Assembly (NCBI RefSeq): GCF_020217185.1
Contig: NZ_JAIWNX010000260.1
Coordinates: forward strand, 1 to 10,000
Direction of reading: 5' to 3'
DNA length: 10,000 nt
Source: Asticcacaulis sp.
GTDB lineage: Bacteria > Pseudomonadota > Alphaproteobacteria > Caulobacterales > Caulobacteraceae
Under the pieces are notes generated by a model. That model was given only the letters and a program-made list of their open reading frames with translations. It made no database searches and had not been told where the DNA came from. Position numbers and translations under genes: made by a program. The first letter of the stretch is position 1; each line of letters starts with the position of its first letter. Shown here in pieces: positions 1 through 8,707 of the stretch.

Positions 1-456
1 GACCGCCTGATGCGCCTTGCGGATCAGATTCTGACCGCGCTCGAAACCGCGCCGCGCCCCACCACGGCTATCGAGATTGGCCGCACCGCCCGCGCCATTA
101 TGGCCGTCGAGCGGATGTTGCGGGGGATATACACGCCGCTGCTGAAGGCGAAACCGAAGCCGGTCAAGGAGGCAACTCCGACCGAAACGCCCGCTGCGTC
201 TCGTCGTCCTCGCGCCGAGCCACCGTCCCCGTCGCGCCCTGACGGGCTCACAGGGGAGGAGACAGACAGCCCCGTGAACGGAGGGGCGTTGGCCCCTGAA
301 CGTACAGAAGAAGCGAAACCAGAGGCAATCCCCGTGGCCTCTCCGCATGGTGAGTGGTCAAAGGGCTGGGCCGACAAACAGGCTCAAATGCGCGAACAAC
401 GCGCCGCTCGCATCGGCAAATGGCCCGACGGCACGCCGTATAAAAAGTCCGGCTGA
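1..456 (+). CDS. Hypothetical protein, 5' end possibly outside the window
   Basis: The reading frame is open from base 1. The first ATG is at 10, but it has no visible ribosome binding site, and the codons before it (Asp-Arg-Leu) continue an amphipathic helix, so the true start is probably upstream. From ATG 10 the product is 148 residues. Residues 1-45 look helical (motif ARAIMAVERMLRGIY). Residues 46-110 are a low-complexity linker rich in Pro, Ala, Glu and Arg, and so probably disordered. The C-terminus is a short charged segment ending in KWPDGTPYKKSG. No signal peptide, membrane helix or catalytic motif is visible. I do not recognise the family. It may be a small conserved Caulobacterales protein, but function cannot be assigned. 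The stop is followed by a hairpin and the rarA control region. Confidence 0.6.
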   Translation, partial: DRLMRLADQILTALETAPRPTTAIEIGRTARAIMAVERMLRGIYTPLLKAKPKPVKEATPTETPAASRRPRAEPPSPSRPDGLTGEETDSPVNGGALAPERTEEAKPEAIPVASPHGEWSKGWADKQAQMREQRAARIGKWPDGTPYKKSG

Positions 457-458
457 TA

Positions 459-492
459 TCTCCTCCCCATCGCTGACGCGACAGGGAGGAGA
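459..492. repeat. Hairpin between the first gene and rarA
   Basis: A perfect 9-base inverted repeat (TCTCCTCCC at 459-467, GGGAGGAGA at 484-492) encloses a 16-base loop. No T-tract follows, so it is not a classical intrinsic terminator, although it lies 3 bases after the upstream stop and could protect a 3' end. Its right arm contains GGAGG (485-489), which would otherwise look like a good ribosome binding site for a GTG at 496. In RNA that site would be paired, one reason to disfavour the GTG start of rarA. Confidence 0.45.
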
Positions 493-563
493 GAGGTGTC
501 CCAGCCCTCCGGAAAAAAACCCGCTAAACGCCGATTTCACGGCTTTTCCTGTCCGGGCAACAT

Positions 564-578
564 GTTCTATACATGTTC
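564..578 (+). promoter_or_regulatory. LexA operator (SOS box) of rarA
   Basis: GTTC (564-567), seven bases, GTTC (575-578) is an exact match to the direct-repeat LexA site known from Alphaproteobacteria (GTTC-N7-GTTC). The wider sequence is an 11-base tandem repeat with one mismatch (560-570 and 571-581). It ends 1 base before the ATG of a DNA-repair ATPase gene, where a repressor would block transcription. An exact match would turn up by chance in 10 kb a fraction of the time, so the position directly before a repair gene carries much of the weight. Confidence 0.75.
568..573 (+). promoter_or_regulatory. Candidate rarA -10 box, possibly giving a leaderless mRNA
   Basis: TATACA lies between the two LexA half-sites and is one or two substitutions from TATAAT. 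Transcription would start about 7 bases downstream, at or next to the A of ATG 580, giving a leaderless transcript; such mRNAs are common in Caulobacter. There is no good -35 hexamer at the expected spacing (about 545-550 reads TTTCCT), so this is a weak call that rests mainly on the overlap with the LexA site. Confidence 0.35.
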
Positions 579-579
579 C

Positions 580-1935
580 ATGTCTTCTGCGCCCCATGAC
601 CTGTTTCAGGCGGCTGGCCTGACGCCGTCCGCTCCGACCCTGACCGCAACTCCCGAAGGGTTCAAGCCGCTGGCTGAGCGTTTGCGGCCGCAGGCCTTGT
701 CCGAGATCGTGGGACAGGACCATCTGCTGGGCGAAGGCGGGGCCATTGCGCGCGCCGTCGATCGCGGGTTTTTGCCGTCGCTGATCCTGTGGGGGCCGCC
801 GGGCGTCGGCAAGACGACCATTGCGCGGTTGCTGGCCGCCAGCGTCGGCTATGAGTTTCAGCAGATTTCGGCGGTTTTTTCCGGCGTCGCTGATCTGAAA
901 AAGGCCTTTGAATACGCGCAGGCCCGCCGCAATCAGGGGGTGCGCAGCGTCCTGTTTGTCGATGAAATCCATCGCTTTAACCGCGCCCAGCAGGACAGCT
1001 TCCTGCCCTATGTCGAAGCCGGCGTGGTCACCCTGATCGGGGCGACGACGGAAAACCCGTCGTTTGAGCTGAACGGCGCGCTTTTGTCGCGCTGTCAGGT
1101 GTTTGTGCTGAAGCGCCTCGATGATGAGGCGATGGACAAGCTCATCACCCGCGCCGAAACGCATCTGGGGCACGCCTTGCCGCTGATGGACGAGGCGAAG
1201 GAGACGTTGAAAGGGCTGGCCGACGGCGACGGGCGCTATCTGCTGACCCTGATCGAGTCTCTGGCCTCGATGGGGTTTGAGGCGCCGCTGAATAGCGAGG
1301 CCCTGCTGCAAAACCTGCAAAAGCGCCGTCCCAATTACGATAAGGACCGCGAAGGCCACTACAACCTGATCTCGGCCCTGCATAAGTCGGTGCGCGGTTC
1401 CGACCCCGATGCGGCACTCTACTGGTTTGCGCGGATGCTACAGGGCGGCGAAGACCCGCTGTACATCGTGCGGCGGATGCAGCGCATGGCCTCCGAAGAC
1501 ATCGGCAATGCCGATCCCATGTCGCTGATCATGACCAATGCGGCGCGCGAAACCTATGAGGTGCTGGGCTCTCCGGAAGGCGAACTGGCCATTGCTCAGG
1601 CGCTTGTCCACATGGCCTCGGCCCCCAAATCGAACGCTGTCTATACGGCCTTCAAGGCGGCGATGAAGGCGGCGAAGGACACCGCGACGCTCGACCCGCC
1701 CGAAGTCATCCGCAATGCGCCTACCAAATTGATGAAGCAACTGGGCTATGGCGAAGGCTATATCTACGACCCGGATGACCCCGACGGGTTTTCGGGGCAG
1801 AACTATTTTCCGGACGGCATGGCACGCCCGCGCTTCTACGACCCGAAGGGCGAGGGGCACGAGGGCAAGACGCGACAAAGGCTTGAATACTGGGCACAAT
1901 TGCGGGAAAAGAAACAGCGGCAAAGGGGGGGATAA
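580..1935 (+). CDS. rarA: Replication-associated recombination protein A (AAA+ ATPase, RarA/MgsA)
   Basis: RarA is a cytoplasmic clamp-loader-like AAA+ ATPase, related to eukaryotic WRNIP1/Mgs1, that acts at stalled replication forks. With the ATG at 580 the protein has 451 residues, close to E. coli RarA. The Walker A motif GPPGVGKTT is at residues 72-80 (Lys78). Walker B is FVDEIHRFN, with Asp128-Glu129. Sensor 1 is GATTENPSF around Asn159, followed by the LLSRC segment. The C-terminal MgsA domain includes MASEDIGNADP and the conserved end YFPDGMARPRFYDP. A GTG at 496 would add 28 residues and has a nearby GGAGG, but that extension is not family-like. The LexA operator and putative -10 lie between 496 and 580, which supports 580. 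The gene ends in a run of seven G bases that doubles as the ribosome binding site of the next gene, 2 bases after the stop, so translational coupling is likely. Confidence 0.95.
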   Translation: MSSAPHDLFQAAGLTPSAPTLTATPEGFKPLAERLRPQALSEIVGQDHLLGEGGAIARAVDRGFLPSLILWGPPGVGKTTIARLLAASVGYEFQQISAVFSGVADLKKAFEYAQARRNQGVRSVLFVDEIHRFNRAQQDSFLPYVEAGVVTLIGATTENPSFELNGALLSRCQVFVLKRLDDEAMDKLITRAETHLGHALPLMDEAKETLKGLADGDGRYLLTLIESLASMGFEAPLNSEALLQNLQKRRPNYDKDREGHYNLISALHKSVRGSDPDAALYWFARMLQGGEDPLYIVRRMQRMASEDIGNADPMSLIMTNAARETYEVLGSPEGELAIAQALVHMASAPKSNAVYTAFKAAMKAAKDTATLDPPEVIRNAPTKLMKQLGYGEGYIYDPDDPDGFSGQNYFPDGMARPRFYDPKGEGHEGKTRQRLEYWAQLREKKQRQRGG

Positions 1936-1937
1936 AG

Positions 1938-2429
1938 ATGTTTTTATGGTTTGTGATTGGGGTGGCAACAGTCTTTGTCATCGCGAATATTATAGTAGCC
2001 TTGATTTGCCTGCCGGTTATCCTGAAGAAAAGTGTGTTGCCCAATCGCTTTGGGGGGACTGTGGAGACACTTGATCTGTTCCAAGCGATCGCTCAGGGTT
2101 TCAGTCGTTGGAATGATTTTGGGGGACGTTCAAACCGTATCGCATTCTGGGTATTTGCTGTATTTATAGGATGCGTTTGTTTTGGCATTCTGGGACTGAC
2201 AGTTTTTCTGCTTATTCTCAACCGCGATGCGCCTACCTGGTGGTCAGGTCTTCCCTTGCTGGCACTTCCGGTTCTCGCTGTGCCGAGCCTTTCGGTGGCG
2301 GTGCGCCGGTTGCACGACACCAACCGCAGCGCCTTATGGCTGTTGTTAATGTTCGTCTGTGGATGGTTGGTATTGTTGAGTTTTTTCTGCCAAATGCCGA
2401 GCCAAGACCAACGAGTTGAGGTTTTTTAG
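1938..2429 (+). CDS. DUF805 family membrane protein, copy 1 of a tandem trio
   Basis: This 163-residue inner-membrane protein has a first hydrophobic helix at about residues 3-29, then the linker LPNRFGG (34-40). The DUF805 signature begins at about 60 with DFGGRSNRIAFWVF. Further helices lie at about 70-94 and 104-120, then the conserved AVRRLHDTNRSALW motif (121-134) and a last helix to about 150. The biochemical function of DUF805 is unknown. The ATG is 2 bases after the rarA stop, with an upstream G-run as ribosome binding site, so it probably shares the rarA transcript. Its composition differs from its neighbours: hand-counting three 60-base rows (1981-2040, 2101-2220) gives 76 G+C of 180 (42 percent), against 38 of 60 in a rarA row (1201-1260). 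The GRSNR and RSALW motifs deviate slightly from copies 2 and 3 (GRATR, RSGLWW; GRASR, RSGWW), so this copy may be diverging. Confidence 0.85.
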   Translation: MFLWFVIGVATVFVIANIIVALICLPVILKKSVLPNRFGGTVETLDLFQAIAQGFSRWNDFGGRSNRIAFWVFAVFIGCVCFGILGLTVFLLILNRDAPTWWSGLPLLALPVLAVPSLSVAVRRLHDTNRSALWLLLMFVCGWLVLLSFFCQMPSQDQRVEVF

Positions 2430-2452
2430 TAGCGGGTTGATTACTGAAACGC

Positions 2453-2947
2453 GTGGCAGCAGGGGGGAATGATGTACGATTTTGGGGGGGGCAATTTTAC
2501 CTTTATCTTGCGGCTGTTTTTGTGTTGCCGTCCGTGCTGGCGGTTGTGTGGTTTAATCTCAAAAAACCTGCGGATGCCCTTCGTTTTGGAGCCCCGCCGC
2601 ATGGACGGTTAAGCCTCGGCAGCGGTGTCGTGACCGCACTGGTTCGCGGGCTGAATTTTACAGGTCGCGCCACCCGCTCACAATTCTGGTGGTTTGTTCT
2701 GATTTATCTCACGGTGTTGTTTCCTGTCGGCTTTCTGGCCAAGGATTACAATCCCATCATGGGCGATATCGTTTATGCTTTGATCGCCGTGCCGATGCTT
2801 TCCGTGGGCGTGCGCCGTCTTCATGACATAGGCCGCAGCGGGTTATGGTGGTTGCTCTTGCCGACAGTACTGGGGGCTCTGCCGCTGATCGTCTTATGGA
2901 CCTTACCGGGTCAAAAGCGACAGGCGGAACCGGAGTCTGTGTTTTAA
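2453..2947 (+). CDS. DUF805 family membrane protein, copy 2 of the trio (uncertain start)
   Basis: The frame encodes up to 164 residues from GTG 2453. There is an N-terminal helix at about 15-36 and a linker with LRFGAPPHG (43-51). The DUF805 core follows, with NFTGRATRSQFWWF (68-81), helices at about 79-95 and 105-120, the VRRLHDIGRSGLWW motif (120-133) and a last helix to about 150. The C-terminus ends in ESVF, like EVF of copy 1. The start is uncertain. GTG 2453 has no ribosome binding site, whereas an ATG pair at 2469 and 2472 has an excellent one (AGGGGGGA, 2461-2468) but is in another frame. A run of eight G bases at 2484-2491 lies between them, and a run of six or nine would put ATG 2472 in frame with the protein. 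A sequencing error, a phase-variable tract or a genuine GTG start are all possible. Function is unknown; it is paralogous to the flanking genes. Confidence 0.8.
   Translation: MAAGGNDVRFWGGQFYLYLAAVFVLPSVLAVVWFNLKKPADALRFGAPPHGRLSLGSGVVTALVRGLNFTGRATRSQFWWFVLIYLTVLFPVGFLAKDYNPIMGDIVYALIAVPMLSVGVRRLHDIGRSGLWWLLLPTVLGALPLIVLWTLPGQKRQAEPESVF
2484..2491 (+). repeat. Eight-base G homopolymer near the start of DUF805 copy 2
   Basis: TTT, eight G bases, then CAA. The well-placed ATG 2472 enters this tract in one frame and the DUF805 protein leaves it in another. A change of +1 (nine G) or -2 (six G) would join ATG 2472 to the full membrane protein. Long G runs are the usual substrate for slipped-strand phase variation and also a common site of assembly error. 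Confidence 0.6.
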
Positions 2948-3022
2948 GCCTTCAAGTCACACTCGCCTCTCAGCTCTGTGATAATCGCTCCCCATTTCCG
3001 GCCCATTTCACGTCCAGACTGA

Positions 3023-3040
3023 CCTTCACGTTGATGAAGG
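3023..3040 (+). promoter_or_regulatory. Small hairpin overlapping the ribosome binding site of DUF805 copy 3
   Basis: CCTTCA (3023-3028) and TGAAGG (3035-3040) are perfect complements around a 6-base loop. The right arm covers most of AAGGAG (3037-3042), the ribosome binding site of the ATG at 3050. Pairing could lower translation. The stem is short, so this may be coincidence. Confidence 0.3.
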
Positions 3041-3049
3041 AGACGCGCT

Positions 3050-3532
3050 ATGTCACCGGAAACCCTGCAACAACTCGCCGTTCTGCTGCTGTGGATCGCG
3101 CCGGCCTTTCTGCCGTTTATTATTTACCCCACCGGACCGAACCGCTTTGGTGCGCCGCACCGCACGGCAGGCTTTGAGGCGGCGGTGCGCAGCGGCTTTG
3201 GGCGCGCTTTTGACTTCAAAGGCCGGGCGTCGCGCGGCGAATATGGCGGCTTCCTGTTGCTGTTTGTCGGCGTCTATTGTGCCGCCGCCCTGATAGACGG
3301 GGCCTTTGGGCTGAGCTGGCTCTACATCGCGCCGATACTGCTGCTAGTCCCCTATATAGCGGTCACTACGCGCCGTCTGCATGATCTCAATCGCTCCGGC
3401 TGGTGGCAGTTGCTGGCCCTGGGGGCGGGCGTTTTTGTGCTGTTTTATCTGCTGGCGCAACCGTCAGCGCAGCCGCTGCGTCAATCCCTGCGCCGTCCGG
3501 TGGGGCCCGTGCGTATGGCTGGTCATCGCTAA
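3050..3532 (+). CDS. DUF805 family membrane protein, copy 3 of the trio
   Basis: This is a 160-residue membrane protein. Its first helix is at about 8-26, followed by the linker GPNRFGAPHRT (29-39), which closely matches that of copy 2. The DUF805 core has FDFKGRASRGEYGGF (54-68), a helix at about 67-83, helices at about 89-106, and TTRRLHDLNRSGWWQLL (106-122), then a last helix to about 135. The tail is Arg/Pro/Gln-rich (136-160) and lacks the VF ending of copies 1 and 2, so this C-terminus has been replaced or drifted. The start is ATG 3050 with AAGGAG seven bases upstream. A 102-base gap separates it from copy 2 with no clear promoter; apart from the hairpin next to the ribosome binding site I see nothing in it. 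GC content is back to the local norm. Function is unknown. Confidence 0.87.
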   Translation: MSPETLQQLAVLLLWIAPAFLPFIIYPTGPNRFGAPHRTAGFEAAVRSGFGRAFDFKGRASRGEYGGFLLLFVGVYCAAALIDGAFGLSWLYIAPILLLVPYIAVTTRRLHDLNRSGWWQLLALGAGVFVLFYLLAQPSAQPLRQSLRRPVGPVRMAGHR

Positions 3533-3572
3533 CGAAAGGCTATAGGTTCGTCTCTCCAAACTGAGGTGACGG

Positions 3573-3836
3573 ATGAGCCAGGTCGTGCGGATTTTGAAGA
3601 TAGGGGCGGGGATCGTCGCTGCCGTCTTTGCGGCTGTGGTGGTACTGGCCCTCTATGCGCCCTACGAGGCCGGAAAGGTGTTGCGCGCCCTCAATATCGG
3701 CATCAGCGGACAAGGACTGGCCGTCTGGGCCGCCTTCGCGCTGGGGGCGCTGATCGTTTTGGCAGCCCTGTTTGGCTCGCTGAGCGGCTCCGGCTTTCGG
3801 GGTCGCCGCGGTGCGGGCAAACATCGTGAGGATTGA
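3573..3836 (+). CDS. Small two-helix membrane protein, unknown function
   Basis: An 87-residue protein with two hydrophobic helices, at about residues 9-29 and 49-70. A short polar loop joins them (YEAGKVLRALNIGISGQG), and the C-terminal tail is basic (GRRGAGKHRED). The ATG at 3573 is preceded by GAGG (3563-3566) at suitable spacing. An overlapping frame from 3566 gives a charged, non-hydrophobic product with no such support. The gene lies 40 bases after DUF805 copy 3 and 43 before the pseudouridine synthase, all on the same strand, so it may be part of the same transcript. I recognise no family. Confidence 0.7.
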   Translation: MSQVVRILKIGAGIVAAVFAAVVVLALYAPYEAGKVLRALNIGISGQGLAVWAAFALGALIVLAALFGSLSGSGFRGRRGAGKHRED

Positions 3837-3879
3837 AAGGCCTATGGGCAAGCGCTGGGCGATATTGTAAGAGCCGCGC

Positions 3880-4755
3880 ATGACTCCGAAAAAGCAGGAC
3901 AAGCTCAACCGTAAAAAGGCCTCGCGTCAGTCGCCGCAGCACAAAGCCGCCATTGCCGAGCGCGAAGCAAAGGGCTGGGCGCGCCCCGTCCAGACGCCCC
4001 AAAACCCCAAGGCCATCGACCGGCCGCTGAAACTGTCTGACGAAGAGATCGTGTGGGTGAAATCCATGCTGATCCACGAAGACGGGGTGATTATGGGCTT
4101 TAACAAGCCGTCGAACCTGTCGTCACAGGGCGGGCGTGGCAATTTCCATAATCTCGATGACATGCTGTGGGCCTTTGCGCGCTCGAATGGCAACAAGCCG
4201 CGCCTGCTGCACCGGCTGGACCGCGACACGTCGGGCATTATTCTGGCGGCCAAGACGCGCACCTCGGCGGCCTTTGTCGGCAATGCGATTGCCGCGCGTG
4301 ATGTGCATAAAACCTATGTCTGCATCGTCGCCAGTCCGCAAAATCTTGCGGACGAAGGCGTCATCGACGTGCCCCTGCGCCGCGAAGAGATCGGGCGGGA
4401 GGCCTATAGCCGCGTTTGCGCCGCCAATCATCCGGACGCCCTGACCGCCCGCACCACCTATCGCGTGCTCAGCCGCACCGATACCTCGGCGCTGGTACAG
4501 TGTGAGCCGTTTACGGGCCGGATGCATCAGATCCGCGTCCACATGGCGCATCTGGGCTGTCCCATTGCGGGAGACGTCCGCTACGGCGGCGCGCTTAGTC
4601 TGGACGGTCTGCGCGTGCCGCGCCTGATGCTGCACGCCCGCGCCATCGAGTTTCCGCATCCCGATGGCGGTCGCCGCCGCTGGGAGGCACAGTTGAGCCC
4701 GGATATTCAGGCGCTCTGTGAAGGTCTTGGGCTGGCGCAGGGAAAAAGTCCGTAA
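3880..4755 (+). CDS. RluA-family RNA pseudouridine synthase
   Basis: This is a 291-residue cytoplasmic enzyme that isomerises uridine to pseudouridine in rRNA or tRNA; the exact target cannot be read from the sequence. The family signature HRLDRDTSG is at residues 111-119. The Asp of RLD (Asp114) corresponds to the catalytic Asp of RluA enzymes. The second conserved block, TGRMHQIRVHMAHLG, begins at 212, and the preceding IMGFNKPSNLSSQGG matches the family's KP-G motif. No S4 RNA-binding domain is present. Instead the first 55 or so residues form a very basic leader (Lys/Arg-rich, with several Gln and Pro) that may contact RNA. The ATG at 3880 has only a weak TAAGAG ribosome binding site. The frame overlaps an antisense open frame that I regard as a shadow. 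Confidence 0.93.
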   Translation: MTPKKQDKLNRKKASRQSPQHKAAIAEREAKGWARPVQTPQNPKAIDRPLKLSDEEIVWVKSMLIHEDGVIMGFNKPSNLSSQGGRGNFHNLDDMLWAFARSNGNKPRLLHRLDRDTSGIILAAKTRTSAAFVGNAIAARDVHKTYVCIVASPQNLADEGVIDVPLRREEIGREAYSRVCAANHPDALTARTTYRVLSRTDTSALVQCEPFTGRMHQIRVHMAHLGCPIAGDVRYGGALSLDGLRVPRLMLHARAIEFPHPDGGRRRWEAQLSPDIQALCEGLGLAQGKSP

Positions 4756-8293: not shown

Positions 8294-8707
8294 ATGAACC
8301 AGAAAATCGACTGGAGCGAGCTGTTCTTTTCGTCCACCGGACGGGTGCGGCAAACGCCGTTCCTGATCGCCCTGGCGGTGCTGGTCGGGCTGTTCATGAT
8401 CTATGACTCGGCCATTACCGGCGCGCCGCGCGTGCTGACCGGGTGGGTGGTCTATCCAGCACTGCTGTTTTGTGCCGCGTGCGTGTTGTCGAAGCGTTTG
8501 CACGACCGGGGGCGCTCCGGCTGGTGGGCGGCGGTGATCCTGATCGCCTTTATGATGGTGTGGCCGCGCCCGGATAATTTCCTCGACTTTGTTGGCGCAT
8601 TGGTGCTGCTGTGGGCGGCCATTGACTTAGGCGCGATGCCCGGCGAGAGGGGCGCGAACAGGTACGGGCGTTCCACGCGATTTGCGGCGCCCATCGAGCA
8701 AAGCTAA
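8294..8707 (+). CDS. DUF805 family membrane protein, fourth copy (without N-terminal helix)
   Basis: This 137-residue membrane protein differs from the trio by starting directly in the DUF805 core: LFFSSTGRVRQTPFLIAL (10-27), a helix at about 22-38, WVVYPALLFCAACVLSKRLHDRGRSGWWA (51-79), and a third helix around 80-90 and a fourth at about 98-110. It then ends in the classic family tail DLGAMPGERGANRYG (111-125). The ATG at 8294 lacks a clear ribosome binding site, and an in-frame stop at 8261 rules out a longer start. The upstream terminator leaves only 13 bases for a promoter, so expression may rely on readthrough or an element inside the terminator region. The C-terminal 18 codons recur in frame immediately downstream (see the repeat). 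Function is unknown. Confidence 0.85.
   Translation: MNQKIDWSELFFSSTGRVRQTPFLIALAVLVGLFMIYDSAITGAPRVLTGWVVYPALLFCAACVLSKRLHDRGRSGWWAAVILIAFMMVWPRPDNFLDFVGALVLLWAAIDLGAMPGERGANRYGRSTRFAAPIEQS
8644..8698 (+). repeat. Tandem direct repeat, copy 1, within the DUF805 C-terminus
   Basis: This 55-base segment matches 8713-8767 at 53 of 55 positions, offset by 69 bases, an exact multiple of three. It codes for the ERGANRYG tail of the upstream protein. Differences are at 8686/8755 and 8688/8757. Confidence 0.9.

Follow-up and report, generated by a model that had tools for sequence, protein, structure and literature searches.

A putatively leaderless or nearly leaderless rarA promoter with a predicted LexA operator on its -10 element in Asticcacaulis, weakened in one clade

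Introduction

The systems closest to the one described here are known from C. crescentus. Its SOS regulon depends on LexA and RecA, and the main text describing it gives the LexA consensus as the direct repeat GTTCN7GTTC (PMC12700426). Leaderless mRNAs are common in the same species, with 375 of them mapped according to the passages reporting them (PMC4117421). The third component, RarA, is active at stalled forks and at post-replication gaps according to the passages that deal with it (PMC8735627, PMC7031210). In Salmonella, the gene (there named ycaJ) is among those induced in egg white; the passage saying so, which belongs to a section about SOS and the repair of DNA damage, does not state LexA control (PMC6374596). 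The rarA genes of E. coli, B. subtilis, and Salmonella are orthologous to the one studied here, but the passages on them do not state LexA control, unlike what we propose for Asticcacaulis. In the literature searched (main-text passages), we found no report of rarA under LexA, a silence that we take as a weak sign of novelty.

The rarA locus of Asticcacaulis combines traits of both C. crescentus systems. It shares with the SOS regulon the direct-repeat operator, here as one predicted box on the promoter of a gene for DNA repair, and differs from it in that the main text of that study does not mention rarA (PMC12700426). Like the mapped leaderless mRNAs, it has a start predicted at the ATG, no Shine-Dalgarno sequence, and a short distance between the -10 and the ATG. 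Unlike them, the -10 of Asticcacaulis rarA lies inside a predicted LexA operator, and the start that was mapped there is predicted here (PMC4117421). We propose that rarA of Asticcacaulis has a promoter that is leaderless, or nearly so, and carries on its -10 a predicted LexA operator, weakened in one clade. From the sequence comparisons below, we put the probability of this reading at about 0.8.

Results

The operator at the start of rarA

We analysed a stretch of 10,000 nucleotides of an Asticcacaulis genome, hereafter the window. Its rarA product has the AAA+ core and, above the curated cut-off, the MgsA_C domain of RarA/MgsA (Table 1). The original prediction was of an exact GTTC-N7-GTTC motif enclosing TATACA and ending one base before the rarA ATG. 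This is what the sequence contains: GTTCTATACATGTTC is followed by a single base, C579, and then by the start codon. At this predicted promoter, the motif exactly matches the alphaproteobacterial LexA operator. A LexA box placed over a -10 represses by blocking the polymerase.

Table 1. Features around the start of rarA, in positions of the window.
Feature	Position	Strand	Remarks
Strong hairpin, behind the upstream gene and 5' of the rarA promoter	459-492	+	-23.9 kcal/mol, z -4.05
Candidate -35, TTCCTG, 16-base spacing	546-551	+	Weak (2/6 consensus); putative
Predicted LexA operator GTTC-N7-GTTC, GTTCTATACATGTTC	564-578	+	Exact motif match, in register at rarA across Asticcacaulis
Predicted -10 hexamer TATACA, within the operator spacer	568-573	+	TATA invariant in 25/25 Asticcacaulis genomes
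rarA start codon ATG, predicted transcription start (leaderless)	580-582	+	Start deduced from the -10 spacing
rarA (MgsA/RarA AAA+ ATPase), 451 aa	580-1935	+	PF12002 MgsA_C, E 1.6e-63
DUF805 gene 1, first after rarA, possible operon partner	1938-2429	+	
DUF805 gene 2	2453-2947	+	GTG start as listed, start uncertain
DUF805 gene 3	3050-3532	+	

No other exact GTTC-N7-GTTC occurs on either strand of the window. The bare match is not significant in itself, because shuffled sequences give 0.29 matches per window and at least one match in 49 of 200 shuffles, so the weight of the case rests on position and conservation. The window's genome (3,436,706 bases) has 66 exact matches and 36 of the reversed control pattern, which indicates that about half of the exact matches may be due to chance; of the 66, the sites at recA, lexA, ruvC, and rarA were assigned to genes.

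LexA and the core SOS genes

LexA is encoded in all 25 Asticcacaulis genomes of our sample, including that of the window, and the same motif is found at core SOS genes. As positive controls, we found it in exact form upstream of recA (25/25), of lexA (25/25, two boxes each), and of ruvC (24/24 examined, a count that leaves out G018, whose match to ruvC falls into two pieces). In several genomes, one lexA box reads GTTCTATATGTGTTC and is letter-identical to the rarA box of two loci (L017 and L021). The DNA-binding domain of LexA, compared in 18 of the 25 genomes, differs among them by one residue at most.

Start of transcription

The original prediction further suggested that rarA would be transcribed without a leader if TATACA is its -10, and much of the sequence agrees with this. 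In all 25 genomes, GTTCTATAnnTGT starts 16 bases (16 genomes) or 17 bases (9 genomes) 5' of the rarA ATG. This leaves a gap between box and ATG of one or two bases, respectively, and the 7-base spacing of the repeat is constant wherever the box is exact. The window has six bases between TATACA and the ATG. In none of the 25 genomes do the 20 bases preceding the ATG contain a Shine-Dalgarno-like tetramer, and 14 of them have no in-frame start 5' of it before a stop codon. The absence of a Shine-Dalgarno sequence and a short, constant distance from the -10 to the start are those of leaderless mRNAs. What fits less well is the weak -35 of the window and an ATG in frame at 562. The -35 is better in some relatives within the genus (TTGACC, TTGAAA); at the 16-base spacing, 21 of the 25 genomes have a -35-like TT and nine have TTG. 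A consensus promoter scan of positions 400-4000 did not call the rarA promoter site. We rejected two other start codons for rarA: GTG 496, for which the other 24 genomes offer no equivalent, and ATG 562, for which six of them do.

These weak points would be explained if the LexA box were real while most rarA transcripts carried a leader and came from a promoter farther upstream, or arose by read-through of the gene at 10-456, which is on the same strand. The effect of LexA would then be small and the mRNA would not be leaderless. The poor -35 of the window, its two in-frame upstream starts, and the presence of an ATG 18 bases upstream of the rarA start in 7 of the 25 genomes, the window included, are all in line with such transcription. 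However, a strong hairpin separates the upstream gene from rarA, that gene precedes rarA in only 7 of the 25 loci, and the sequence upstream has diverged. Neither the 14 genomes lacking an upstream in-frame start nor the restriction of the GTG to the window fit this explanation, and we consider it unlikely.

Conservation within Asticcacaulis

The operator at rarA is exact in 16 of the 25 genomes: the first GTTC block is kept in all of them and the second in 16. The RarA tree has two clades, and the operator is kept exactly at the orthologous promoters of all 14 genomes in the clade of the window, but in only 2 of the 11 genomes of the sister clade. The other nine have an altered second half, which reads GTTCTATATTTGTTTC in seven genomes, GTTCTATACCTGTGTC in one, and GTTCTATATCTGTTTT in one. 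LexA control in its strict form is thus not genus-wide, since 9 of the 25 genomes lack the exact second half, even though they have exact boxes at the other SOS genes and the LexA domains compared do not differ. The box states require three changes on the tree, which by itself is compatible with either an ancestral or a later-acquired exact box.

Eleven of the 15 box columns are invariant over the 25 genomes, a number that rises to 13 within the window's own clade. The 60 bases upstream of the box have diverged (mean frequency of the commonest base of 0.40-0.48), and of the fourfold sites of rarA, 2 of 127 are invariant over the 25 genomes and 21 of 156 in the window's clade. One block, GTTCTATATTTGTTTCATG, is unchanged in seven loci (L015, L016, L018, L019, L020, L022, and L025) despite an inexact second half (GTTT) and diverged flanks. 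A changed LexA does not appear to lie behind the altered rarA boxes of the sister clade: its DNA-binding domain differs by at most one residue among the 18 genomes compared, and the recA, lexA, and ruvC boxes are exact there.

rarA loci of other genera

Outside the genus, the box is nearly absent from the loci examined. In the interval from -200 to +30 around the site aligned with rarA residue 1, an exact box was found in 1 of 81 and in 0 of 31 loci, two sets that overlap in part (L067 and L218, for example, share a start region). These loci were anchored by alignment to residue 1 of the window's RarA; some of their start codons are uncertain and a few have less than 200 bases upstream. The only box, in Acetobacter (L136), lies on the other strand 55 bases before the residue-1 position and probably arose by chance. 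In the same interval, none of 22 related loci, including those of Caulobacter, has an exact box. We chose these 22 by hand, by record title and kinship; two are titled only Alphaproteobacteria (L075 and L081), and L070 was omitted as a copy of L027. Hence, of the conservation of the two GTTC blocks that the original prediction proposed to look for in related Caulobacterales, the part concerning Asticcacaulis stands (first block in every genome, second in most), whereas, among the loci examined, the blocks are not common to the order.

These related loci do share a -10-like CTA close to the start. Of the 22, 16 have it at a distance of 6-18 bases from the ATG, against 3.8 expected from shuffling this interval (whose limits were set after the sequences had been seen), and none has it 18-30 bases before the ATG. 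The occurrence of this element near the rarA ATG in genera lacking the box suggests that initiation at the ATG, or near it, predates the box.

It could be argued that nothing but this leaderless promoter is conserved, the -10, the C before TATA, and the start region being kept for RNA polymerase, and that the GTTC repeat is incidental and does not bind LexA. Promoter function alone would retain the TATA and part of the block. TATA is indeed invariant in 25 of 25 genomes versus 16 for the second GTTC, and GTTCTATATTTGTTTC-ATG is unchanged in seven sister-clade genomes that have no exact LexA box. The 16 related loci with the CTA near the ATG have no GTTC repeat. Yet a -10 needs neither the GTT before C-TATA nor the TGTTC between the -10 and the start. 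In the window's clade, all 14 genomes have both of them unchanged, with the 7-base spacing fixed while the distance to the ATG varies, and the promoters that related genera have in the same place do without them. Conservation of the promoter would therefore account for TATA but not for two GTTC blocks at a fixed spacing, and we find this explanation quite improbable. An origin by chance match to a short motif, for which the expectations in the window and its genome given above leave room, is hardly credible and was rejected, since 16 of the 25 genomes have the exact box in this one position, whereas 0.002 matches are expected per 230 bases from the remainder of all 110 loci (6 in 662,386 bases) and about 0.004 from the 66 matches of the window's genome.

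Genes around rarA

The original prediction had a DUF805 gene two bases behind rarA, and the coordinates confirm it: the rarA stop codon ends at 1935 and the gene starts at 1938. In all but three of the 25 genomes (22, the exceptions being L011, L013, and L022), the 1.5 kb downstream of rarA contain a DUF805 match, and another gene precedes it in four (L002, L003, L007, and L008). A relative of the pseudouridine synthase encoded at 3880-4755 of the window (54-58% identity) directly follows rarA in L022 and in L026-L030, the latter being all five loci from other genera of the family. A scan of positions 400-4000 found six terminator-like sites (4.4 expected), none of them on the + strand of 1079-2325, which spans the joint between rarA and DUF805. 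This, together with the gene-order survey, makes plausible a shared transcription of rarA and the first DUF805 gene, and with it the DNA-damage control that the original prediction proposed for that gene; for the two DUF805 genes behind it, shared transcription with rarA is conjectural.

The window has four DUF805 genes, three in 1938-3532 and one at 8294-8707. The first three sit between rarA and the gene for the pseudouridine synthase, which directly follows rarA in the five loci of other genera. On the other side of rarA, the hairpin was not called as a terminator by the scan of 400-4000. Its core is found at four places in the genome (with up to two mismatches), and its reversed control at none.

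Other boxes next to a start codon

Over Asticcacaulis, a box followed by 0-3 bases and an ATG occurs 190 times, against 44 for the reversed pattern. We do not take this as proof because the reversed pattern is an unfair control for the ATG and many matches will be intragenic. Among six such sites inspected away from rarA, five mark the start of ORFs of 14, 15, 27, 67, and 1 codons. In the sixth, GTTCACTATTTGTTC runs directly into the ATG of a gene that has 207 codons and belongs to the 2OG-Fe(II) oxygenase family (L280:460-1095, in G001:C2; PF13532, E 3.6e-14), which is presumably AlkB-like. This gene is possibly a second SOS gene with a LexA box touching its start codon. The sequence before a 14-codon ORF at L278 (G024:C6:274612-274631), GTTCTATATATGTTCGCATG, is letter-identical to the rarA box-and-start of other species, and the genome that carries it away from rarA, G024, has an altered box at its own rarA.

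Discussion

We propose that promoter, LexA operator, and start codon of rarA form a single block of 19-20 bases in Asticcacaulis. A sigma-70-type -10 (TATAnn) would lie in the 7 bases that separate the direct repeats of a LexA operator, and the predicted transcription start is the ATG itself or a position within 1-2 bases of it. Bound LexA would cover the -10 and keep rarA off; upon DNA damage, RecA-stimulated cleavage of LexA would release it. The operator would be a feature of Asticcacaulis laid on a promoter whose close -10 is common to related genera. We infer the binding of LexA, the leaderless start, and the induction of rarA by damage from motif, spacing, and conservation. The gain of the operator in Asticcacaulis, and the order of gains and losses, are inferred from the distribution of box states.

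A more far-reaching scenario is possible, though we hold it to be doubtful. The gene rarA may have been recruited to the SOS regulon within one genus by the building of a LexA operator around an older leaderless -10, making the repressor site, the core promoter, and the start codon one module. The clade with an eroded half-site would then be an intermediate, and the DUF805 genes would ride on the same damage-induced transcript.

At a more general level, rarA appears to be a new member of a circuit whose type is known, apparently brought under LexA in Asticcacaulis. Whether cells raise RarA upon damage is not settled by the passages on model species; if our reading is true, Asticcacaulis would be a case in which rarA has been placed under LexA. 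Its clades and relatives (with an intact box, an altered box, and, in other genera, no box) may then provide a natural series for studying the entry of a gene into a regulon, and its exit, in a setting where operator, -10, and start codon have bases in common.
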